In this document: positions 2,899 to 28,742 of the stretch, piece by piece
Layout: every line of letters begins with the position of its first letter
Numbering within the stretch: the stretch's first letter is position 1
The notes under the pieces: model-generated
The model's input: the letters and a program-made list of their open reading frames with translations, nothing else
What the model was told of the DNA's origin: nothing
Database searches by the model: none
DNA from: a virus
Virus record (IMG/VR): IMGVR_UViG_3300025712_000024
Location: 1-29,524 of that record
Reading direction: 5' to 3' (one strand)
Length of the DNA: 29,524 bases
Position numbers and translations under genes: made by a program

Positions 2899-3249
2899 AT
2901 GATTATTTTACAACCGATAGCAACAGAACAAAGTTTTAGCTTTATACCAAGAAGCCAAACTTATGACACGTTATATATCACAGGAGAATCTACAAACGTA
3001 ACAACTGAAATAACAATAACAAGTTTTGCAAATGGAGATTACTACGATACAATAAACGCAACTTTTGTTAATGGCTTATTCAATTTAGTAAACAATACTT
3101 TTTACACTTTGGAACTAAAAAACGGAACAACGATAGTACACAAGGATAGAATCTTTGTAACGGATCAAACGCCTGTTGTAAACTATTCAGTAAATGACGG
3201 AGAATTTACTTCAAACGTCAGTAACAACGAATTTATTATTTATGAGTAA
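2899..3249 (+). CDS. Small beta-rich virion-associated protein, function unknown
   Basis: This 116-residue protein is made of short alternating hydrophobic and Thr/Asn-rich segments (for example TEITITSFANGDYYDTI), suggesting a single beta-sandwich domain. It has no signal peptide or catalytic residues that I recognise. It is the first gene after the 2816 terminator, and its last codons overlap the portal start (ATGAGTAA: portal ATG at 3242, this stop at 3247-3249), so the two are translationally coupled. Position suggests a head or neck accessory protein. I do not recognise the family. Confidence 0.7.
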   Translation: MIILQPIATEQSFSFIPRSQTYDTLYITGESTNVTTEITITSFANGDYYDTINATFVNGLFNLVNNTFYTLELKNGTTIVHKDRIFVTDQTPVVNYSVNDGEFTSNVSNNEFIIYE

Positions 3250-5008
3250 TAACATACACGTATTAGAATTAAGTGGCTACGAAGCGCCTGTAATCAAAGA
3301 ATCTAAAAGAGAAGATTGGGTTGAATTTGGTACGGATAATAACTACTATCAGTATTTAATCGACAGATACACGAATAGCACTACTAACAACGCCATAATA
3401 AACAACATCACTCGTTTAGTATACGGAAGAGGTTTAAGTGCAACAGACGCATCAAGAAAGCCTAATGAGTACGCACAAATGATGTCACTATTCAATAAAG
3501 ATTGTGTTAGGCACTTATGTACTGATTTAAAGTTGTTAGGACAATGTGCCGTTCAAGTCATATACACGAAAGACAGAAAGAAAATTGCACAAGTACATCA
3601 TATACCTGTTCAATTATTACGTGCTGAAAAGTGTAACGAAGAGGGCAAAATTGAAGCTTACTATTATAGTGACGATTGGACAGATTTAAGAAACTACAAG
3701 CCAAAAAGAATACCTGCGTTTGGATGTTCAAAAGAAGATATTGAAATCTATTTTATAAAGCCATATAGTGTAGGAATGAAGTATTATTCTTTGGTAGATT
3801 TTATCGGCGGTATTCCTTATGCAGTTTTAGAAGAAGATATTTCTGAATACTTAATAAACGAAGTAGAAAACGGATTTAGTGGAAGAAGTGTAGTAAACTT
3901 CAATAACGGAGTGCCAAGTGAAGATCAACAACAAATAATAAAAAACAAAGTACAAAGCCAATTAACAGGAATGAGTGGCGAAAAGTTAATAGTAGCTTTT
4001 AACAACAATGCAGAATCAAAAACAACAGTAGATTCTATGCCTGTAAATGATGCACCAGATTTGTATAGTACTTTATCGGAAGAGTGTTTAAGAAAAATAA
4101 TGTTAGCACACAATGTAACGAGTCCTTTATTGTTTGGCATAGCATCGTCTAATGGATTTAGCAGTAATTCAGACGAATTAAAAGACTCGTTTGCGTTGTT
4201 TTCAAATATGGTAATTGCACCAATGCAAGAACTTTTGTTGGATGCTTTCGATCAGATACTTGCATATAACGGAATAGCTTTAAACTTATTCTTTAGAACG
4301 TTAAAACCTTTGGAGTTTGTAGATTTAGAAAACGTACAAACAGAAGAACAAATACAAGAAGAAACAGGATTAGAATTAAGTGGCGATTTTGTAGGCAAAG
4401 AACTCATAGAACTTGGCGAAATGCCTAAAGCTGATTGGTTGCTTATAGATGAATTTGAAGTAGACTACGATACAGACGAAGACGAAAATACGTTACTTTC
4501 AAGCGACATAAAAACGGAATTAAGCCTAAAAGATAGATTAATAAATTTAGTAAGTACAGGAACGGCTTTTCCAAACGCAAAAAGTACACAAGACGATGTA
4601 ATTGATGGAATTAAATTTATTACACGTTATGTTTATGCAGGAAAAACAGGTGGCAATAGTGGAAAAGGCAGAGAATTTTGCGAAAATATGATGAATGACA
4701 AACGAGGAAACAAGATATATCGTAAAGAAGACATCATAAGAATGAGTGGACAATCTGTAAATCCAGGCTTTGGTGTTGATGGCGCTAATACTTATTCGAT
4801 ATGGCTTTACAAAGGTGGGCCGAATTGCTATCACAGATGGAATAAACAAGTTTATGTAGCTTTTGAGGGTACAGGAATTGACGTTAAAAGTCCTTTAGCA
4901 TCACGTATATCAAGTGCAAAAGCAGCTAAATACGGATATATAATTAAAAATCCAAATTTAGTAAGCCAACGACCTATTGATATGCCTAATCAAGGATATA
5001 AAAAATAA
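3242..5008 (+). CDS. Portal protein with a MuF-like C-terminal extension
   Basis: This 588-residue protein combines a portal-type core (about residues 1-425) with a separate C-terminal domain (about 430-588). The core begins with a NNYYQYLIDRY segment and contains a helix-rich LAHNVTSPLLFG/SNSDELKDSFALF region, both typical of Bacteroidota portals. The C-terminal part has FCENMM, YRKEDIIRMS (from residue 493), VNPGFG and YKGGPNCYHRW (Cys529, His531). This arrangement resembles the C-terminal domain of Mu gpF/SPP1 gp7 minor head proteins, which bind the portal. I start at 3242 because that ATG overlaps the preceding stop; a more upstream in-frame start would read far into the previous gene. 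No separate minor head gene is seen, consistent with fusion. Confidence 0.85.
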   Translation: MSNNIHVLELSGYEAPVIKESKREDWVEFGTDNNYYQYLIDRYTNSTTNNAIINNITRLVYGRGLSATDASRKPNEYAQMMSLFNKDCVRHLCTDLKLLGQCAVQVIYTKDRKKIAQVHHIPVQLLRAEKCNEEGKIEAYYYSDDWTDLRNYKPKRIPAFGCSKEDIEIYFIKPYSVGMKYYSLVDFIGGIPYAVLEEDISEYLINEVENGFSGRSVVNFNNGVPSEDQQQIIKNKVQSQLTGMSGEKLIVAFNNNAESKTTVDSMPVNDAPDLYSTLSEECLRKIMLAHNVTSPLLFGIASSNGFSSNSDELKDSFALFSNMVIAPMQELLLDAFDQILAYNGIALNLFFRTLKPLEFVDLENVQTEEQIQEETGLELSGDFVGKELIELGEMPKADWLLIDEFEVDYDTDEDENTLLSSDIKTELSLKDRLINLVSTGTAFPNAKSTQDDVIDGIKFITRYVYAGKTGGNSGKGREFCENMMNDKRGNKIYRKEDIIRMSGQSVNPGFGVDGANTYSIWLYKGGPNCYHRWNKQVYVAFEGTGIDVKSPLASRISSAKAAKYGYIIKNPNLVSQRPIDMPNQGYKK

Positions 5009-13037: not shown

Positions 13038-13117
13038 AGTTGGTAGGACAATCAAAATATTTAGAGTATAGCGTAAGTAAGTGTTCCTACCCACTGAAAG
13101 CGTTATACTTTTTTTTT
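13038..13117 (+). ncRNA. Structured RNA with interleaved helices and a terminator (candidate small RNA or attenuator)
   Basis: Helix 1 pairs AGTTGGTAGGA (13038-13048) with TCCTACCCACT (13085-13095): ten pairs and one mismatch. Helix 2 pairs GTATAGCG (13066-13073) with CGTTATAC (13101-13108): eight pairs including one G-U, directly followed by nine T residues (13109-13117). The 5' strand of helix 2 lies in the loop of helix 1, so together they form an H-type pseudoknot or compete. A promoter box ends 4 bases before helix 1, and the DUF6291-like gene starts 12 bases after the T-run. The element fits either an ~79-nt stable RNA or an attenuator of the replication operon. Confidence 0.65.
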
Positions 13118-19217: not shown

Positions 19218-19649
19218 ATGGCAAAAAAAGGAAGACCTAAATCACTAAAAGACGCACAAGAATTAGAAGACATTTTTGACGCATACAAAACCTACACAAA
19301 AACGAATCCAAGATTTAAATATCACCTAAACCAAAGAACAGGAGATATGGTAGGAGAACCATTAGAAGTTCCACTAACAATAGAGGGCTTTGAACTATAC
19401 TGTCACAAGAAATTTAACTTCACGGCAAAGCATTATTTAGAGAATACAGAAAAGAGATACGAAGATTTCTGTACTATCTCTACACGTATACGCAAAGAAA
19501 TACGCGACGATCAAATCAAAGGTGGTATGGTAGGCCAATACAATCCAAGCATTACTGCACGATTAAATAGCCTAAAAGAACAGATAGAACAAACGAATAT
19601 AGAGCAACCACTTTTTCCAGATGTTTCAAAGAACAACGGCAATAAATAA
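19218..19649 (+). CDS. Terminase small subunit (P22 gp3-like DNA-packaging protein)
   Basis: This 143-residue protein has a basic head MAKKGRPKSLKDA, then TIEGFELYCHKKF and YEDFCTISTRIRKEIRDDQI. The block GGMVGQYNPSITARLNSLK is highly typical of gp3-like small terminases. This family binds the packaging start and hands DNA to the large subunit in headful packaging. The end of the gene overlaps the large subunit by 29 bases, confirming the pair. Confidence 0.88.
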   Translation: MAKKGRPKSLKDAQELEDIFDAYKTYTKTNPRFKYHLNQRTGDMVGEPLEVPLTIEGFELYCHKKFNFTAKHYLENTEKRYEDFCTISTRIRKEIRDDQIKGGMVGQYNPSITARLNSLKEQIEQTNIEQPLFPDVSKNNGNK

Positions 19650-20781
19650 AATACTTGCGTTAAAAAAACGGATTAAGATAGTTCAAGGTGGAACATCAGC
19701 AGGAAAGACATACGGCATACTTCCTATCTTAATAGACCGTGCAGCCAAAACACCTAACACAGAAATAAGCGTTGTATCTGAATCTATTCCACACTTGAGA
19801 AGAGGTGCTTTAAGAGATTTTGTAAAGATTATGAAATCTATCAACAGGTTTGTAGATGACAGATTTAACAAGTCACTACTAAAATACGAATTTGCAAACG
19901 GCAGTTTTATAGAATTTTTTAGTGCAGACGATTCAAGTAAACTTCGTGGTGGTAGACGTACAATACTTTACATAAACGAGTGCAATAGTGTAAGCTTTGA
20001 ATCTTACAACGAACTTTCAATACGTACAAAAAACGAAGTATTTCTTGATTACAATCCAACTGCTGAATTTTGGGTACAAACAGAAATAGAAGACCAAGAA
20101 GATGCAGAAAAGATAATACTTACTTACAAAGACAACGAAGCACTTGATAACGGAATCATAAGCCAGATAGAAAAGAACATAAAGAAAGCAGCTACAAGCA
20201 ACTATTGGAAGAACTGGGTACGTGTTTATGTAGATGGCGAGATGGGGCAATTAGAGGGCGTTGTATTTAGTAATTGGAAACAGATTGATACAATACCAGA
20301 CGAAGCAAGATTGATAGGCATAGGAATTGACTTTGGATATACAAACGACCCTACAAGTATTATTGAAGTGTACAAACATAACGAAACACGAATACTAAAC
20401 GAAGTAACCTATCAAACAGGATTATTAAATAGCGACATAGCAAAAATACTTCCAAGCAACGTGCCGTGTTATGCAGATTCAGCAGAGCCAAAAAGTATAG
20501 CAGATATACAACGGTATGGCATAACAATAAAAGGAGTAACAAAGGGCAGGGACTCTATAAACTACGGTATTGATGTTATGCAACGTGAAAACTATTTAGT
20601 TACTTCTAATAGCACCAGCCTAATTAAAGAATTAAGGAGTTATTGCTGGGACACAGACAAGACAGGAAAACGTTTAAACAAACCTGTAGATAATTTCAAT
20701 CACGCAATAGATGCAGTACGTTATCACGAGATGGAAACGTTAGGAATGAATAAGAATTACGGAAGTTATAATATTCTGTAA
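19621..20781 (+). CDS. terL: Terminase large subunit (packaging ATPase-nuclease)
   Basis: This 386-residue protein has an ATPase part with Walker A GGTSAGKT (residues 23-30) and Walker B TILYINE (Glu120 catalytic), and a nuclease part of the RNase H type with DFGYTNDPT (Asp237), DSAEP (Asp286) and NHAIDAVRY (Asp364). It pumps DNA into the procapsid and makes the cuts. It is rather short for the family, but all motifs are present. No endonuclease-disabling substitution is visible. The start overlaps the small subunit. Confidence 0.95.
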   Translation: MFQRTTAINKILALKKRIKIVQGGTSAGKTYGILPILIDRAAKTPNTEISVVSESIPHLRRGALRDFVKIMKSINRFVDDRFNKSLLKYEFANGSFIEFFSADDSSKLRGGRRTILYINECNSVSFESYNELSIRTKNEVFLDYNPTAEFWVQTEIEDQEDAEKIILTYKDNEALDNGIISQIEKNIKKAATSNYWKNWVRVYVDGEMGQLEGVVFSNWKQIDTIPDEARLIGIGIDFGYTNDPTSIIEVYKHNETRILNEVTYQTGLLNSDIAKILPSNVPCYADSAEPKSIADIQRYGITIKGVTKGRDSINYGIDVMQRENYLVTSNSTSLIKELRSYCWDTDKTGKRLNKPVDNFNHAIDAVRYHEMETLGMNKNYGSYNIL

Positions 20782-20800
20782 AGTACAAAAACACGAAAAA

Positions 20801-20812
20801 AAAGTTATTATA
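20801..20812 (+). promoter_or_regulatory. Start-proximal motif AAAGTTATTATA before the tail chaperone
   Basis: This is an exact copy of the shared motif, two bases before the ATG at 20815, preceded by AAAACACGAA, part of a second recurring element. The 33-base spacer after the large terminase holds no host-type -7 box and no terminator. Confidence 0.45.
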
Positions 20813-20814
20813 TT

Positions 20815-21555
20815 ATGAAGTTAGATATACTGCTGCCAAATTCACTATCTGAAATACCACTATCAAGGTATCAAGAGTTTGTAGCTATGAAAGAAAAGAG
20901 TAACGACGAAGAACTGATTGCAAATAAAATGATACAGATATTTTGTGGCTTACAATTAGGAGAAGTTGCAAAGATTAAACTAAAAGATTTAAACGGATTA
21001 ATCAAGCACTTTACAGAAGTGTTTAGTGAAAAGCCACAACTAATACGAAACTTTAAAATAAAAAACATAGAATTTGGATTTATTCCTAATCTGGAAAACA
21101 TCAGCTTCGGAGAATATGTTGATTTAGAACATCACTTAAAAGATTGGAGTACATATCACAAGGCAATGGCAGTAATGTTTAGGCCGATAAAAGAAAAGCA
21201 CAAAGACAAGTATTCTATAATAGAATACGAGCCAAACGAAGATATGCAGGACTTGATGAAGTTTGCGCCTTTAGATGTTGCAATAAGTGCAAGTGTTTTT
21301 TTTTGGAGTTTAGGAAGCGAATTGTTACAAGCTACTCTAACTTATTTGAAGAACGAACTGATGAAGACGAAGGATTTAACGAATTTTCAGAAAGAGTTCA
21401 GTTTGGCAAACAATGGGGTTGGTATTCAAGTATATATGGACTCTCTGGCAACGACCTTACAAAATTTGACACAGTTACAAAATACGGACTTACTAAATGT
21501 CTCACATATTTATCTTTCGTCAAACAAAAAAACGAAATTGAAAGCCGTGAACTAA
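20815..21555 (+). CDS. Tail assembly chaperone, zero-frame product (gpG-like)
   Basis: This 246-residue protein is the frame-0 product. Residues 1-163, up to VFF, are shared with the frameshift product; the remaining 83 residues overlap the -1 frame. The N-terminal part (LSEIPLSRYQEF, then KMIQIFCGL and ISFGEYVDLEHHL) is helical and fits the tail chaperone family of Bacteroidota phages. It precedes tail completion, distal-tail and tape measure genes, as expected. Chaperones of this type bind the tape measure before tube assembly. Its long stop-free second half in an AT-rich genome suggests that both overlapping frames are used. Confidence 0.8.
   Translation: MKLDILLPNSLSEIPLSRYQEFVAMKEKSNDEELIANKMIQIFCGLQLGEVAKIKLKDLNGLIKHFTEVFSEKPQLIRNFKIKNIEFGFIPNLENISFGEYVDLEHHLKDWSTYHKAMAVMFRPIKEKHKDKYSIIEYEPNEDMQDLMKFAPLDVAISASVFFWSLGSELLQATLTYLKNELMKTKDLTNFQKEFSLANNGVGIQVYMDSLATTLQNLTQLQNTDLLNVSHIYLSSNKKTKLKAVN
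21297..21303 (+). promoter_or_regulatory. -1 frameshift site (T TTT TTT) in the tail chaperone gene
   Basis: A run of nine T (21296-21304) places T TTT TTT in the zero frame (codons TTT 21298-21300 and TTT 21301-21303 preceded by T). This is the classic slippery heptamer. Slipping by one base continues with TTG at 21303-21305 and then an open frame to 21572. The result is a 252-residue fused product. Transcriptional slippage on the T-run would give the same result. No clear downstream stem or pseudoknot was found by eye. Confidence 0.85.
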
Positions 21556-21572
21556 AACGACAAATGAAATAA
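21303..21572 (+). CDS. Tail assembly chaperone, -1 frame extension (gpGT-like T part)
   Basis: These 89 codons have no usual start and begin exactly at the slippage point. The product contains FGKQWGWYSSIYGLSGNDLTK and CLTYLSFVKQKNEIES. The W-G-W-Y ... D-L-x-K ... CLTYLSF pattern is typical of the downstream half of tail chaperones in this phage group. It is joined to the first 163 residues of the frame starting at 20815, giving a 252-residue protein, with the stop two bases before the next ATG. In lambda the T part links the chaperone to tube subunits. Confidence 0.8.
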   Translation: MEFRKRIVTSYSNLFEERTDEDEGFNEFSERVQFGKQWGWYSSIYGLSGNDLTKFDTVTKYGLTKCLTYLSFVKQKNEIESRELKRQMK

Positions 21573-21574
21573 TT

Positions 21575-22027
21575 ATGAACTACTTCGATATAATAGACAA
21601 ACTAAAAACACACTTCGATAACGATGAACTAATAAAAACCGTTACACAAGGCGATATCTTTGACGTTGATTTAAATAAGCAAACAATATTTCCTTTAGTG
21701 CATTTGATCGTAAATCAAGCCACGTTTGAAGAAAACGTCATAAGATACAATATAAGTATTTTGGCTATGGATATCACAGACATATCAAAAGACGAAACAA
21801 CAAATAAATTTGATGGCAACGATAACGAACTATATGTATTAAATACTATGATGGCAGTATTGAATAGAGTTTATGAGTTGTTAAGAAGAGGCACACTTTA
21901 CACGGATGCCTTTCAAGTGGATGGCAATCCAACGGCAGAATTTTTTACAGAAAGGTTTGAAAATAAACTTGCAGGCGCAACATTAACCTGTGATATTTTA
22001 ATCGGCAATTCAATGACTATTTGTTAA
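21575..22027 (+). CDS. Probable tail terminator or completion protein
   Basis: This 150-residue protein starts two bases after the frameshift product ends. Pieces such as FPLVHLIVNQATFEENVIRYNISILAMD (split strands, residues about 40-68) and a later AGATLTCDILIG form alternating strands and helices like the gpU-type tail terminators. Its neighbour is an HK97 gp10-like protein, and such pairs are common at the head-tail joint. No enzyme motif is present. The call is by fold impression and context. Confidence 0.55.
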   Translation: MNYFDIIDKLKTHFDNDELIKTVTQGDIFDVDLNKQTIFPLVHLIVNQATFEENVIRYNISILAMDITDISKDETTNKFDGNDNELYVLNTMMAVLNRVYELLRRGTLYTDAFQVDGNPTAEFFTERFENKLAGATLTCDILIGNSMTIC

Positions 22028-22584
22028 TGGCAGAATTTAATAACATACAAGAACTATTAGATGACTTCAAGGATAATGTAATCCGTGAAGCAAAAAAAGG
22101 TATTCCAAGAGATACAGGAAATCTTGCAAATAGTTTAAAAGGATATGTTAAAGAATCAAAAAATAGTATTCAAATTTCTTTTGAGATGGATGAATACGGA
22201 TTTTATAAAGATCAAGGTGTAAAAGGAAATAAAAGTTCTAACAAAGGAAACGGACAAAACAAATCGCCTTATAAATTTGGAACAAATAGTTCACTAATAG
22301 GAAAAGCAAACGGTGGTATGTCTGGCATTATGGCAAAATGGGCCAAGCGTAAAGGCTTTCAATGGAAAGATAAAGAGACAGGCAGATTTATGAGCCATAA
22401 GAGTATGGGTTATATTATAGCAAGAAGCATATATTCCAAAGGCTTAAAGCCAAGCTTGTTTTTTACAAAGCCATTTGAAAAGTATTACAATAAACTTCCA
22501 GATGAACTTATGGAAATGTTCGGCTTTGATATGGAAAAACTATTTAATCAAATTACTGAAGAAAACTTTAAACAACTAAAATGA
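22021..22584 (+). CDS. HK97 gp10-like tail completion protein
   Basis: This 187-residue protein begins with a helix (FNNIQELLDDFKDNVIREA), followed by KGIPRDTGNLANSLKG (residues about 23-38). The P-x-D-T-G-x-L-x-x-S motif is the hallmark of the HK97 gp10/phi ETA family, which works at the head-tail connection or tail completion. A basic, Gly/Asn-rich stretch (about 60-90) and helices with FMSHKSMGYIIARSIYSKG follow. It overlaps the preceding gene by 7 bases and the next by 4. Confidence 0.8.
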   Translation: MLMAEFNNIQELLDDFKDNVIREAKKGIPRDTGNLANSLKGYVKESKNSIQISFEMDEYGFYKDQGVKGNKSSNKGNGQNKSPYKFGTNSSLIGKANGGMSGIMAKWAKRKGFQWKDKETGRFMSHKSMGYIIARSIYSKGLKPSLFFTKPFEKYYNKLPDELMEMFGFDMEKLFNQITEENFKQLK

Positions 22585-23672
22585 AATTATCACGAAGTCC
22601 ATACATAATAGAGGTAGACGATGCTACACAAACAGGAAGCAAAATAGAATTATTTTTGGCGAATACACCTGGCTTTTTAGCAAATCCACAATACACACTA
22701 TCTAAATTAATTCCTGCGTCTAACAACACTAAAACTTTTTACAATATAAGTCCTTACGTAAGAGAATACTACACTTTTAACGTGTGGCAAAGTGCGACAG
22801 GTTTAACGTATGGCATCGACACAAGTACAAATTACTTGGTAAACTACAAAGTTAAGTCTTATAACTTGATAGGTGGAACGTATGTATTAAATACAACAGA
22901 AACAGGAACTTTTGTAGATGGCTACAACTACTATATGGATGGCTACAACGCAACAACACCAATAGCACTTTTAGATGAGGGTACTTATTTTTACAACTAC
23001 GATGCTACAATACCAACTACACAAGGTAATGGATTATGGGGCAGTTTTGATTGTGAATTAAGTATAGGAGATGTTGTGAAATATACTGATTTAGTAACAG
23101 GTGCAACATTTACAGACACGGCAACTACTGATGGAGTAAAAAGCTATGCACGAGCATACTTAACTTATGCACCAAACGGTAACAAAGTAGAAATCTTAAT
23201 AGGTGGCGTAACAGAACGTTGGACTGCATACTTTAAGCCACAATGTGAGCCAAAGTATCAGCCAGTAGTTGTGGACTTTATTAATCGTTACGGAAGTTGG
23301 TCAAGAATATTCTTTCAAAAAGTTAAGAAAAGAAGTATCAACGTAAAAACGAATGAATACAAATTCAATCCAAGCGCATTACCTTACTATCCTAACTTGT
23401 CTGGCGATGGTCAATTTAAAGAGTTTAACATAAACGCAAAAGAAACTATTAAGCTAAACACAGGATGGGTTAACGACGACTATGGCGATTATATACAACA
23501 GATGTTATTGAGTGAGAAGGTGCTTCTATTAGATTACGAGGTAAACACGAACTACACTCCTGTAAAAGCCAAAACTAAATCACTTCAAAAACAAGTAGGA
23601 ATAAACGATGGAATGATTAACTATGAGATGGAGTTTGAATTTGCTTACGATTTAATTAACAATGTAGTTTAA
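22581..23672 (+). CDS. Virion tail protein, beta-rich (distal tail candidate)
   Basis: This 363-residue protein is built of alternating strands and turns with many Tyr, Asn and Thr residues (for example SPYIIEVDDATQTGSKIELFL at the start). No helix bundle, signal peptide or catalytic motif is visible. It lies between the gp10-like protein and a large distal-tail protein, and its end shares one base with the latter (AATGA-type overlap at 23672). It probably belongs to the tail tip or baseplate. I recognise it only as a Bacteroidota phage structural protein. Confidence 0.65.
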   Translation: MKLSRSPYIIEVDDATQTGSKIELFLANTPGFLANPQYTLSKLIPASNNTKTFYNISPYVREYYTFNVWQSATGLTYGIDTSTNYLVNYKVKSYNLIGGTYVLNTTETGTFVDGYNYYMDGYNATTPIALLDEGTYFYNYDATIPTTQGNGLWGSFDCELSIGDVVKYTDLVTGATFTDTATTDGVKSYARAYLTYAPNGNKVEILIGGVTERWTAYFKPQCEPKYQPVVVDFINRYGSWSRIFFQKVKKRSINVKTNEYKFNPSALPYYPNLSGDGQFKEFNINAKETIKLNTGWVNDDYGDYIQQMLLSEKVLLLDYEVNTNYTPVKAKTKSLQKQVGINDGMINYEMEFEFAYDLINNVV

Positions 23673-26083
23673 TGAGAACTGTACAAGTATACATAGAGGG
23701 GCAAAGACTTGATTTATTTAAAGACGAAATAATAAGCGTTACAAGTAAGCAGCAAGATATCCAAGATATTAGCAAAGTATTTACTGACTATTCACAAAGC
23801 TTTAGTGTTCCGAGTTCAATTAAAAACGATGCAATATTTAAGCATTTCTATAATAGTGATATTGGCGATTTACAAGATATCAATACAATCTTTGACCACA
23901 ACATCCGAAGAGATGCATACATAGAAATAGACTTAACAACATTTAGACGTGGAAAAATAAGTTTAGAAAAATCAGAAGTAAAAGACAACCAACCTTATAG
24001 TTATCAAATTACTTTCTACGGAGATATATTGGCACTTAAGGATAAATTTCAAGACGATAAATTGGCTGATATGTCTGAACTTGATTTTTATAATTTTGCG
24101 TATGATGGCGCAGCAGTTCAAGACAGAATAACAAATGGAAGCATTACTTATGGTGTTAGGTTTCCTTTAATCTTTAATAGAGATATAACTTATGGAACAG
24201 GTGGAAGCACAGACATAGGAACAACAGGAACAGGAAGTGTTTTGTACAATGAATTATTTCCAGCTATTAAACTACTTTCTTTAATTAACGTAATACAAAC
24301 GAGGTACGGAGTTACGTTTAGTGGAACATTTTTTGGAGATAAAAGATTTAGTAATGCTTATTTGTATTGTAAAAATTCAGAAGATTTTACTTTTGTAACT
24401 GAATCTAAATTAATGGATATAACAAGTGGAAGTACGGATATTATTAATTATAATACAACTAAAACTTATTTAGATTATTTTGATTTAGGTACAGATACAT
24501 TAAGCTTTGGTCAAATATCATTTTCAGAAGCATTTCCAGGAGCAACGCCTGGTCTTCAAGCTGCATTTCTATATAGTGTTGTTTTAGAAATTAATTCTGT
24601 AAATCCAGCAACACCACAAACAATATTTTATATTGATGTAATATTGAATAACCAAGTAGTTCAAACAATAACTGCACAATCTCCTGGAACAACACAAATT
24701 ATTGAGGGTAGTAGTGTAAATACACCTAACACTAATTATAGTTTTAGATTTAGGGCTCAAAATGCTTTATCAGTTACTTTTAAAATTACTTATCAGCAAC
24801 TTACATATATTGACACAGGTAGTGGCATTGATACGGCTATAAATAGATATTATGGAACAGGAGCAGTAAGTGTAAATAATGATTTTAGTGTTGTTAACTA
24901 CGTTCCAGATATGACCGTAAGCGACTTCTTTAAAGGAGTTCTAAAGATGTTTAATTTAACTTGCTATGGAACGGCAGAAAATGTGTTTCAAGTTGAGCCG
25001 TTAGACGATTGGTATGCGAAAGGCGCAGTTGTAGATATCACGAAATACACGGATATAAAAAGCATAAACATAGACAGGCTTAAATTATTTAAAACAATAG
25101 AATTTAACTACCAAGAAAGTGAAAGTGCTACAAATACAATATTTAAAAATCTTACAGGTCGTGGCTATGGAAACACGAAGAACACTTTTGATTATGATGG
25201 TGGTGCTTTTAAAGTAGAATTGCCTTTTGAAAATATGATGATGCAAAAGTTTCAAGGCACGAATCTACAAATAGGCGAAACAATAAATCAAGATGGAAAC
25301 AAGTACGTTCCTAAACCTATGATAATTTATGAGTACGAAGAATTAGCACAAGATTATAGATTTACAGATGAAACAAGTACAAGCACTTTAACAGAGTATG
25401 TTCCTTTCGGACAAGATGTAAAAGTATTGACTGAAAACTACACACTTAATTTTAATGCAGACATAAGCACCTTAACAAACATAGCTGAACAGAATACACT
25501 TTTTAAAACATATTATTCTGGATATTTACTTAATCTGTTTAATTTAAAGAATAGAAGAACAACCATAAAAACGAATCTACCTGTAAGCCTATTAACTGAA
25601 TTACGTTTGAATGACAGGCTAATTATTAGAGATAAAAGATACATTATAGAATCAATGAAATCTAATCTCAATACTGGCGATGTAGATTTTGTTTTGATAA
25701 ATGATTTTAGACCTGTTATTGCTATCGGTGGAGGTGGTCCAACAGAGCCATTAATTCCAAGTGATGTATCACAATGTTTAGACGTTAGAATCTTATTTCC
25801 TAACGGAGTAGTTCAAGCAGATATAACTTGTAGCAATCCAAGTGTAACGATTACGCCAAGCACTTTAACAAGTGAGGGTACGATTCAAGTATGTATTCCA
25901 GACAATCCAAATACTACAACGGTACTAAAAACTGAAGATGATATAGACTACATAAACACGGAAGATACTAAACGAGTAAGAACAGAAGAGGGAACTATTG
26001 AACTATACACTTTAGTTGTTACTTATACATTCAGTAACGGAACACAAACAAGCAACCAAATATTTATCCAACAACAACCGTAA
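23672..26083 (+). CDS. Large distal-tail / baseplate protein
   Basis: This 803-residue protein starts TVQVYIEGQRLDLFKDEII and DISKVFTDYSQSFSVPSS, a block I associate with the N-terminal baseplate-ring part of tail proteins in Bacteroidota phages. The middle (about 170-400) is beta-rich and Thr/Ser-rich; MTVSDFFKGVLKMFNLTCYGTAE (as pieces, about 414-436) starts a Tal-like segment. The final ~110 residues form a separate Ig-like domain after the Gly-rich hinge IGGGGPTEP. It probably caps the tube and touches the host surface. No lytic domain was found. Confidence 0.7.
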   Translation: MRTVQVYIEGQRLDLFKDEIISVTSKQQDIQDISKVFTDYSQSFSVPSSIKNDAIFKHFYNSDIGDLQDINTIFDHNIRRDAYIEIDLTTFRRGKISLEKSEVKDNQPYSYQITFYGDILALKDKFQDDKLADMSELDFYNFAYDGAAVQDRITNGSITYGVRFPLIFNRDITYGTGGSTDIGTTGTGSVLYNELFPAIKLLSLINVIQTRYGVTFSGTFFGDKRFSNAYLYCKNSEDFTFVTESKLMDITSGSTDIINYNTTKTYLDYFDLGTDTLSFGQISFSEAFPGATPGLQAAFLYSVVLEINSVNPATPQTIFYIDVILNNQVVQTITAQSPGTTQIIEGSSVNTPNTNYSFRFRAQNALSVTFKITYQQLTYIDTGSGIDTAINRYYGTGAVSVNNDFSVVNYVPDMTVSDFFKGVLKMFNLTCYGTAENVFQVEPLDDWYAKGAVVDITKYTDIKSINIDRLKLFKTIEFNYQESESATNTIFKNLTGRGYGNTKNTFDYDGGAFKVELPFENMMMQKFQGTNLQIGETINQDGNKYVPKPMIIYEYEELAQDYRFTDETSTSTLTEYVPFGQDVKVLTENYTLNFNADISTLTNIAEQNTLFKTYYSGYLLNLFNLKNRRTTIKTNLPVSLLTELRLNDRLIIRDKRYIIESMKSNLNTGDVDFVLINDFRPVIAIGGGGPTEPLIPSDVSQCLDVRILFPNGVVQADITCSNPSVTITPSTLTSEGTIQVCIPDNPNTTTVLKTEDDIDYINTEDTKRVRTEEGTIELYTLVVTYTFSNGTQTSNQIFIQQQP

Positions 26084-26271
26084 TGATTAAAAACATAGTA
26101 GACTTATTAGCAATAGACGATTTTTATAATGGCAGCTACAATGTACAAGTGGCGAAAGGATTATATAGTTATGAAACAGGAGTGAAAGGAATTTATAAGC
26201 AAAAGAAAAGAATGAACTTGTTAAAAACACGAAATAAAGACACACTCAAATGGCTGAAACAAGAACTATAA
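26083..26271 (+). CDS. Small basic protein between distal-tail and tape measure genes
   Basis: This 62-residue protein starts in a TAATG overlap with the previous stop and ends 22 bases into the tape measure gene. The first half (IVDLLAIDDFYNGSYNVQVAKGL) looks folded; the second half is Lys/Arg-rich (KGIYKQKKRMNLLKTRNKD). Function is unknown. Tight packing and overlap on both sides support a real gene. A small tail-tip accessory protein is the most natural guess. Confidence 0.6.
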   Translation: MIKNIVDLLAIDDFYNGSYNVQVAKGLYSYETGVKGIYKQKKRMNLLKTRNKDTLKWLKQEL

Positions 26272-28742
26272 ACGTAAACATCAAAAACAATGCTGATAAA
26301 ACGGCAAAAGATTTTGATAATTTAAATGATTCGTTAGACGAAACTGCAAAAGCAAACGAGCAGGTAAATGAATCGTTTGATACAGGAGCAACATTTGCTA
26401 AAAGATATGGAGATGCCATAGAGCCACTTACTACACGAATGGGCGAAGCAGAAGATCGTCTTTATGAATTAGCACTTGCAGGAGATACGGCTTCACAAGA
26501 ATATCAAGAACTATTAACCAAAGTAGGAGAATATCGTAAAGTTCAAATACAAACGGATTTAGCAGTAGATGGCGCAGCGACTACAATGACGCAAAAGTTA
26601 GGTAGTGCGTTAAATGGTGCTACAAGTGGCTTTGCAGCTACACAAGGTGCTATGGCTTTGTTTGGAGATGAGAACCAAGCACTTGAAGAATCACTTTTAA
26701 AAGTTCAATCTGCATTAGCTATACAGCAAGGAGTACAAGGTCTTACAGAAGCTTACAGAGAATTATCAATAGGTAGTAAATTGGCAGCAGCAGGACAAGC
26801 AGCATTTACTTTTGTTACTGGTGGTGCAACAACAGGATTAAAGTTGTTTAGAGCAGCACTTATTAGTACAGGTGTGGGTGCTTTAGTTGTAGGTATTGGT
26901 TTACTCGTGGCAAATTTTGACAAGGTTAAAGAAGTATTAACAGATGTAAACAAAGGCTTTAAGGAGGGTGGCTTATTAACAAAGGCACTAATGATTTCTT
27001 TCGCTCCTTTAATCGCCACGGTTAAAGTATTTCAAAAAGGTCTAAAAGCATTAGGTATAGCTCAGGGCAAAAATGCAGAACAAGAAAAAGCAGATGCTAA
27101 AAGACGTGAAGAAGAAGCAAAAGCAGACGAAGATAGATGGAATGATAAAAAAGACAGGCTAAATAAAGAATATGAGTTAAAACGAAAATTAGCACAAAAA
27201 GAAATTGCTTTAGCAAAAGCAAAGGGTGAAGAAACAAGAGAAGCAGAACGAAAAATAATAACAGACGCAATAGCTGATGCTGAAAAAAACGCAAAAGACG
27301 ACAAGGATAAATTTGAAGAAGAAACTAGAGATACTATTGATAGTATTCAAAAAAGAATAGATGCAAAAAAGAAGGCACAAAAAGTAATACAAAAAATAGA
27401 GGCTGAGGGTATAAAAGATAGGTCTGATTTATCTGTTGTAGAATCCCAAATTTTAAGAAATGCTCGTGTAAATATGTATACCCATACATTTGAGATTGAA
27501 AGACAATTAGAAGCATCAAATAAAAGATTAAATGAATTTAGGAATAAAGAGACTAAGAAATGGATAACAACTACTAAAGGTGACGTTGAATCTTTACAAA
27601 AAGATTTAGAAATTTTTGACGCTGAAGAAGTAAAGGATAATGCAGACAAATTAAAACAAAAACAAGAAGATAGATTAAACACTGCCAGAAAAATAGAAGA
27701 CCTTGAGAACTCTTTACTAAAGGACGGAATAGAGAAAGACCTTGAAATCAATAGAGACAAGTTTAGAAGACTACAAGAGGATGCCAAGAAAAACACGAAG
27801 CTAACTGCAAAAGAAAGAGCAGCGTTAAAAGACCTTTATGACAAGCAAGAACTTGCACAACAAAAAGTAATTAATAAAAAGTACGTTGATTTAGAAAAAG
27901 AGAAAAACAAAAAAATTGATGAAGAAAAAGCTAAAGCAAATCAAGAAAGAATAGATAAAGAAGATGCTTTATTTCAGTTAGAACTTGACTTAATGAAAGA
28001 CAGGCAAATGGCAGAAATAATTGCTTTGTCACAAAGTTATGAAGCAAAGTATTTACTTGCACAAGATAATGCAGAACTTACAAAACAATTAGAAGCACAA
28101 TTTTTAATAGATCAAGCTGCAATAGAAGATCAATTTAGATTAGAAAAGTTGGCCAAAGACAAAGAGGCATCAGATAAACAAAAAGACTTAATAGAATCCG
28201 AAAGACAAGCAAGACTTGAAGCAATACAAAAAGGTTTAGAATATGCGCAACAAGGTGCAGACGCAATTCAACAAATTGGCGATTTAGTTTTTTCTAATAA
28301 AATGGCTAAACTTGAAGAGGGAAGTAAGGAAGAAGAAGAACTTGCAAGAAAACAATTTAAGTTTAACAAAGCGATGCAGTTAGGGGGTGCTATTATAGAT
28401 GCAGGTAAGGCAATTACAGCTTCTCTTGCTTCTGCTCCTATTGCTATTGGGCCTGTTCCTAATCCTGCTGGTATAGCATCTCTTGCGTTTGCAGCTACAA
28501 CGTCTGCCGTAAATATTGCGAAAATTGCTTCTACTAAATTTGAATCAACTGGCGATCCTGCTGACACACCTACGCCAAATATAGACGAATCAGCAGCACC
28601 TAATTTTAACGTTGTTGGAGATAGTGGAATAAATCAAATAGCACAATTACAACAACAACCTGTACAAGCTTTTGTAGTTAGTGGAGAAGTAACGACAAGC
28701 CAAGCACTTGACAGAAACAGAGTACAAAATGCAACACTATAA
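26250..28742 (+). CDS. Tail tape measure protein
   Basis: This 830-residue protein is the longest in the window. It is largely helical with long charged coiled-coil stretches (about residues 270-680), one hydrophobic segment around 200-225 (ALISTGVGALVVGIGLLVA) and another around 710-760 (AIIDAGKAITASLASAPIAIG). The end, QPVQAFVVSGEVTTSQALDRN, is a typical tail of Bacteroidota tape measures. At roughly 1.5 angstrom per residue it predicts a tail of about 125 nm, as in a siphovirus. It lies after the distal-tail genes, the reverse of the lambda order. Confidence 0.85.
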   Translation: MAETRTINVNIKNNADKTAKDFDNLNDSLDETAKANEQVNESFDTGATFAKRYGDAIEPLTTRMGEAEDRLYELALAGDTASQEYQELLTKVGEYRKVQIQTDLAVDGAATTMTQKLGSALNGATSGFAATQGAMALFGDENQALEESLLKVQSALAIQQGVQGLTEAYRELSIGSKLAAAGQAAFTFVTGGATTGLKLFRAALISTGVGALVVGIGLLVANFDKVKEVLTDVNKGFKEGGLLTKALMISFAPLIATVKVFQKGLKALGIAQGKNAEQEKADAKRREEEAKADEDRWNDKKDRLNKEYELKRKLAQKEIALAKAKGEETREAERKIITDAIADAEKNAKDDKDKFEEETRDTIDSIQKRIDAKKKAQKVIQKIEAEGIKDRSDLSVVESQILRNARVNMYTHTFEIERQLEASNKRLNEFRNKETKKWITTTKGDVESLQKDLEIFDAEEVKDNADKLKQKQEDRLNTARKIEDLENSLLKDGIEKDLEINRDKFRRLQEDAKKNTKLTAKERAALKDLYDKQELAQQKVINKKYVDLEKEKNKKIDEEKAKANQERIDKEDALFQLELDLMKDRQMAEIIALSQSYEAKYLLAQDNAELTKQLEAQFLIDQAAIEDQFRLEKLAKDKEASDKQKDLIESERQARLEAIQKGLEYAQQGADAIQQIGDLVFSNKMAKLEEGSKEEEELARKQFKFNKAMQLGGAIIDAGKAITASLASAPIAIGPVPNPAGIASLAFAATTSAVNIAKIASTKFESTGDPADTPTPNIDESAAPNFNVVGDSGINQIAQLQQQPVQAFVVSGEVTTSQALDRNRVQNATL

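Follow-up and report, generated by a model that had tools for sequence, protein, structure and literature searches.

Purifying selection on two C-terminal ends encoded in the same bases behind a T9 slippery run of a putative phage tail chaperone gene

The frameshift gene and its neighbors

The stretch of DNA analyzed in this work (the window) is virus DNA of 29,524 bases from IMG/VR with a G+C content of 33%. The gene order in the window includes a terminase gene, the frameshift gene, tail genes, and a tape measure gene. The relevant features are as follows (positions are those of the window):

19621-20781, + strand: large terminase, the gene immediately upstream, which corresponds to an annotated gene of the Nonlabens phages
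20815-21303, + strand: N-terminal part (stem) of 163 codons common to both products, AlphaFold2 (AF2) pLDDT mostly 83-94, found in about 200 relatives
21296-21304, + strand: T9 slippery run containing the heptamer T TTT TTT at 21297-21303, in phase (T9 or T10 in relatives)
21304-21555, + strand: frame-0 C-terminal part, 83 codons and stop (TAA, 21553-21555), product of 246 aa
21303-21572, + strand: frame -1 C-terminal part, 89 codons and stop, predicted to be helical, with the motif WGWY...LTKCLTYL (T-like)
21575-22027, + strand: next gene (150 aa), whose ATG lies 2 nt past the -1 stop and 19 nt past the frame-0 stop
26250-28742, + strand: tail length tape measure protein (PHROG 9483, E 2e-8; PHROG 1538, E 4e-7), the expected partner of a tail chaperone

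The frameshift gene starts with the ATG at 20815 and its codons 161-164 read GTT TTT TTT TGG. The codons of the -1 frame run from 21303 to 21569 and are followed by the stop codon TAA at 21570-21572, so that the shifted product is 252 aa long. When the sequence was re-read, the coordinates, the 163-residue stem, the 83 frame-0 codons, and the 89 codons of the -1 frame given in an earlier, sequence-only description of this locus (the original prediction) were all found to be correct. Its statement that the -1 frame begins at the slip point and lacks a usual start holds in part: the first start-like codon is TTG at 21303, within the slip site, but the frame is already open in the window from 21183, i.e. 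40 codons before the slip. Many relatives have a -1 stop just 9-18 nt upstream of the slip. The sole other T9 run of the window (13109-13117) is located between two genes (13025 and 13130). A long ORF at 3194-5008, which by eye resembles a portal protein with an extra C-terminal domain, overlaps its upstream ORF by 56 bases. The gene order from 19621 to 28742 is unusual in that the putative chaperone gene lies right behind the terminase gene, and the tape measure gene starts 4.7 kb downstream with five genes in between.

In the AF2 model of the frame-0 form, the stem has a long helix (residues 153-187) that passes through the slip site and is followed by a low-confidence stretch after residue 187, a second helix (203-221, pLDDT ~70), and a basic tail (222-246) in which confidence falls until the end is disordered. 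The frame-0 products of distant relatives terminate roughly at the end of helix 203-221. The frame-0 fold is common to 35 viral proteins, uncharacterized where named, and several viral proteins of 226-267 aa match both the frame-0 and the -1 models, which suggests that they may be fused or differently annotated versions. No convincing relatives of solved structure were found by sequence and fold; this does not show a new fold.

Relatives and the length of the frame-0 end

Relatives were collected by three IMG/VR searches of different bias, using the full frame-0 protein, the N-terminal 163 residues alone, and the -1 part alone as queries. Loci cut by contig ends were excluded from the tally of frames and runs. 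Whichever query found them, approximately 200 non-identical intact relatives keep a T9-T10 run and both frames. All 114 non-redundant relatives carry T9 or T10, as do all 48 non-identical distant ones (~35-47% identity in frame 0), which were reached starting from the Nonlabens sequence.

The frame-0 end contains 83-101 codons in the window's clade and 43-82 codons (mostly 51-63) in distant relatives. Early frame-0 stops in relatives, which the original prediction had named as evidence against itself, are absent in most but do occur in the Nonlabens phages P12024S and P12024L and their kin (26-28% identity), where the frame-0 end is 16-25 codons long. In a maximum-likelihood tree of the stem, every sampled member with at least 83 frame-0 codons falls in one clade (98/96). 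The frame-0 end was lengthened separately, to 72-82 codons, in a second lineage (L304, L310, L312, and L315). Because two lineages are involved, at least two lengthenings must have occurred, provided that ~55 codons, the common length, is the older state. By sequence comparison, a frame-0 extension that continues the helix and adds a G.G/SLKE helix (mostly 51-63 codons) occurs widely in the family, and it has been lengthened in the window's clade.

A few members carry a broken or fused gene. In L125 (about 3489-3527) a single nonsense codon 12 codons past the slip closes the -1 frame and leaves frame 0 intact, and in L256 the stem is broken by one nonsense codon. In L260 (958-967) T10 replaces T9 and the stem reads straight on into the usual -1 part as a 259-codon ORF, which is either a natural fusion or a one-base metagenome error. 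All of these look like isolated base changes or errors.

The Nonlabens phages P12024S and P12024L (genus Inhavirus, genes 38/39 and 40/41) belong to the same family, PHROG 32199, and share the position after the terminase, the T9 run, and a -1 part of 81 codons. They differ in that frame 0 ends 25 codons past the slip and the next gene is 130 nt away. The two parts are annotated as separate hypothetical proteins. In P12024L and P12024S (L081 and L082, 4528-4695 in each) the -1 part appears as a separate 55-aa gene and the preceding slip site and frameshift were missed, an example of how databases split or truncate such genes. The host of these two phages is Persicivirga sp. IMCC12024, a flavobacterium from seawater that is now placed under Nonlabens, and on that account the hosts of the family are likely to be flavobacteria, probably marine. 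Host or prophage copies of the gene were not found in the genome collections scanned.

Chance and selection in the double open frame

By a naive composition estimate, 83 stop-free codons have a probability of 7e-4. In a recoding test, synonymous codons were drawn from the usage of the window's own genes while the protein of one frame was held fixed. With the -1 protein fixed, not one of 20,000 trials kept frame 0 free of stops; with the frame-0 protein fixed, the -1 frame stayed open in 0.02%. Values were similar when 16 relatives of the window's clade were recoded. In 113 of 114 relatives the third (+1) frame shuts after 0-7 codons; in the one exception it does so after 18. A chance origin of the double open frame is excluded, in agreement with the original prediction that such a long second frame would be unlikely by chance. 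We also considered sequencing error as the source of the second frame; this was ruled out by the agreement of ~200 loci.

Synonymous-rate analysis in relatives, which the original prediction had proposed as a check, was carried out on a tree of 110 non-redundant sequences. Every substitution inferred on the tree was sorted by what it does in frame 0 and in frame -1, and the N-terminal part supplied the expected counts through its four-fold sites. Changes that leave the -1 residue as it is but replace a frame-0 residue were accepted at 0.011, as compared with 0.024 for N-terminal synonymous changes. Changes silent in -1 but creating a frame-0 stop were observed 4 times versus ~190 expected at the N-terminal synonymous rate (~50-fold avoidance). 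The frame-0 dN/dS was 0.59 (0.43-0.83) with -1 class N and 0.22 (0.16-0.45) with -1 class S, and the -1 dN/dS was 0.30 and 0.11 in the two classes; the -1 frame of the N-terminal part, which is non-coding and served as the control, was without such constraint (0.79-1.8). The frame-0 constraint repeats in the distant clade alone (0.64, 0.47-0.91) and likewise in shallow branches.

The accepted -1-silent changes in frame 0 are chemically conservative (z 5.8 overall; 6.5, 3.5, and 1.25 in the first, middle, and last thirds of the frame-0 end), and the N-terminal control has a z of -2.6, which is not exactly zero, so small effects are not to be over-read. At E5, E17, L47, and L63 of frame 0 (post-slip numbering) there were zero -1-silent replacements versus 15-30 expected. 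Residue constraint on frame 0 is found in the first ~55 codons and is weak in the last third; in the last 28 codons of the overlap, 1 frame-0 stop was seen versus ~118 expected. To judge from these counts, openness is kept more than sequence in the last ~25 frame-0 codons. Judged by these substitution patterns, both ends are under purifying selection within the shared bases, i.e. the overlap is dual-coding. The earlier suggestion that both C-termini may be functional is supported in that both frames are open in relatives and under purifying selection.

It could be argued that function past the slip resides in the -1 frame alone and that codon bias is what leaves frame 0 open for so long, as AT-rich DNA combined with a well-conserved -1 protein could leave some frames open. 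Barring gross errors in the alignments, this explanation is refuted in view of the recoding result, the avoidance of stops together with the residue constraint, and the immediate closure of the +1 frame.

Mechanism of the shift and roles of the two products

We consider the ribosome to be the probable site of the slip, although with modest confidence. The heptamer T TTT TTT is in the correct phase for ribosomal -1 slippage in every member, and conserved hydrophobic and aromatic residues on either side of the two phenylalanines could account for the flanking T's. Alternatively, RNA polymerase may slip on T9 and add one U to some mRNAs, from which normal translation would give the -1 end; this alternative concerns the mechanism of the shift and is compatible with dual coding. 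Runs of nine A or T are known to slip in bacterial transcription (PMC5009743), and the A9 run of tssM3 slips at 15-25% (PMC4256274). In the present family the run is T9/T10 throughout, even where it is displaced two bases relative to the codons and though seven T's suffice for the heptamer, and other T runs of at least nine are rare (3 in all in 599 kb of these loci). The original prediction does not remark on this length, at which slippage during transcription may also occur. No consensus for a conserved stimulatory RNA structure was found in 18 sequences by modeling of structures other than pseudoknots, and z for single-sequence RNA folding was between -1.4 and +1.8. Polymerase slippage is possible on these grounds, but set against the correctly phased heptamer it is somewhat doubtful. 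In the known cases of transcriptional slippage (Thermus dnaX, Shigella spa13, Citrobacter/Yersinia tssM) an A/T run, of about nine in several cases, likewise gives two C-termini (PMC4256274, PMC5009743), and both tssM1 forms are needed (PMC4256274, PMC5009743). These genes differ from the present one in that they are not viral tail genes and, in the cases compared, one product is simply shorter or longer. The combined picture of a large family of uncultivated, probably flavobacterial phages that makes its chaperone as two near-equal proteins, with both C-termini functional and encoded by the same 165-300 bases through polymerase slippage on an obligatory T9-T10, is tentative and, taken as a whole, unlikely.

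The name "tail chaperone" used in the original prediction fits the anatomy of the gene and finds weak support in sequence and fold searches. As in G/GT pairs, a slippery site kept in relatives joins a stem to a domain in an alternative frame; the gene does not lie directly upstream of the tape measure gene as G/GT genes do. No sequence match to lambda G was found, and there was no significant match to Pfam chaperone families, PF10109 (Phage_TAC_7) being hit by 1 of 45 members at E 0.043. A fold match in BFVD named "tail assembly chaperone" has an E of 0.34. T4 gp26 and gp51 were tried as relatives and dropped, as single-sequence profile comparisons were not significant. A frameshifted virion or neck protein instead of a tail chaperone would agree with the position directly behind the terminase, five genes upstream of the tape measure gene, and with the best sequence family, PHROG 32199, having no assigned function. 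Against this, a -1 frameshift pair of this kind typically serves tail assembly in long-tailed phages (PMC5009743), PHROG 166 "tail protein" is matched by 24 of 45 members (best E 3e-5), and no second such frameshift was noticed in a non-systematic look through the window; we regard a virion or neck protein as rather unlikely. Because membership is argued from anatomy and weak matches and the gene does not adjoin that of the tape measure protein, we describe the gene as one that appears to work like a chaperone pair, not as a proven member.

The reading that we consider likely is that of one gene with two proteins of near-equal length, both ends being selected and the roles being similar to those of G and GT. 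The 163-residue stem would be common to a presumably major 246-aa frame-0 form and a presumably minor 252-aa -1 form, the latter arising when the reading machinery slips one base back on T9, and ~250 bases past the slip would encode both ends. By analogy with the lambda G and GT chaperones, the stem may bind the tape measure protein, and tail-tube subunits may be recruited by the -1 end; chaperones of this type do not remain in the virion. The frame-0 end would be a second functional C-terminus, probably for self-assembly or tape-measure binding, in place of a stub of a few codons as in lambda or P2. The main role of the last ~25 frame-0 codons is probably to have unshifted ribosomes finish beside the start of the next gene, because stop avoidance there is strong and residue constraint is weak. 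In 53 of 114 relatives of the window's clade the frame-0 stop precedes the next ATG by 4 nt and the -1 stop overlaps that ATG, an arrangement that would also suit a frame 0 kept open solely to carry unshifted ribosomes to the next start (by coupling or by avoiding polarity), its residues being irrelevant. Such coupling cannot explain the whole extension, because most distant members stop 55-90 nt ahead of the next gene and are still constrained, and the first ~55 frame-0 codons are constrained at the residue level. Coupling as the sole role is quite improbable; it probably applies to the frame-0 tail only. Points that count against two functional ends with G/GT-like roles are that the Nonlabens phages manage with 16-25 frame-0 codons, that constraint in the last third is weak (z 1.25), that no significant solved-structure or Pfam chaperone match was obtained, and that the gene is located behind the terminase gene and not before the tape measure gene.

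The lambda G/GT pair also has a -1 slip after the stem, a shared N-terminus, a -1 extension, and a next gene that overlaps the -1 end. Lambda slips on G GGA AAG and its frame 0 ends 5 codons later, whereas here the slip is on T9 and 83 codons follow. The products of 246 and 252 aa are alternative endings and not a short and an extended form; no sequence similarity was found, and the tape measure gene of the window does not adjoin the frameshift gene. P2 gpE/E+E' slips -1 on a similar T-rich heptamer (T TTT TTG), but frame 0 ends 6 codons past it and the tape measure gene follows directly. TP901-1 gpG/gpGT, both products of which are needed (PMC4493119), also uses a -1 slip; frame 0 ends 8 codons past the heptamer and the tape measure gene again follows directly. 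An earlier description of such an overlap was not found in the literature searched, which did not cover the survey of Xu, Hendrix and Duda (2004), where long overlaps may be noted.

In the G/GT chaperones measured here (lambda, P2, and TP901-1), the unshifted form ends 5-8 codons past the slip and the shift is read as adding a domain. In the present family the unshifted form appears to have a selected C-terminus of its own, so that the slip would be a choice between two endings, and a C-terminal function of the G form becomes testable. The family is also a further, clear example of prolonged dual coding in double-stranded DNA phages, its natural variants ranging from 16 to 101 codons, with at least two separate lengthenings.
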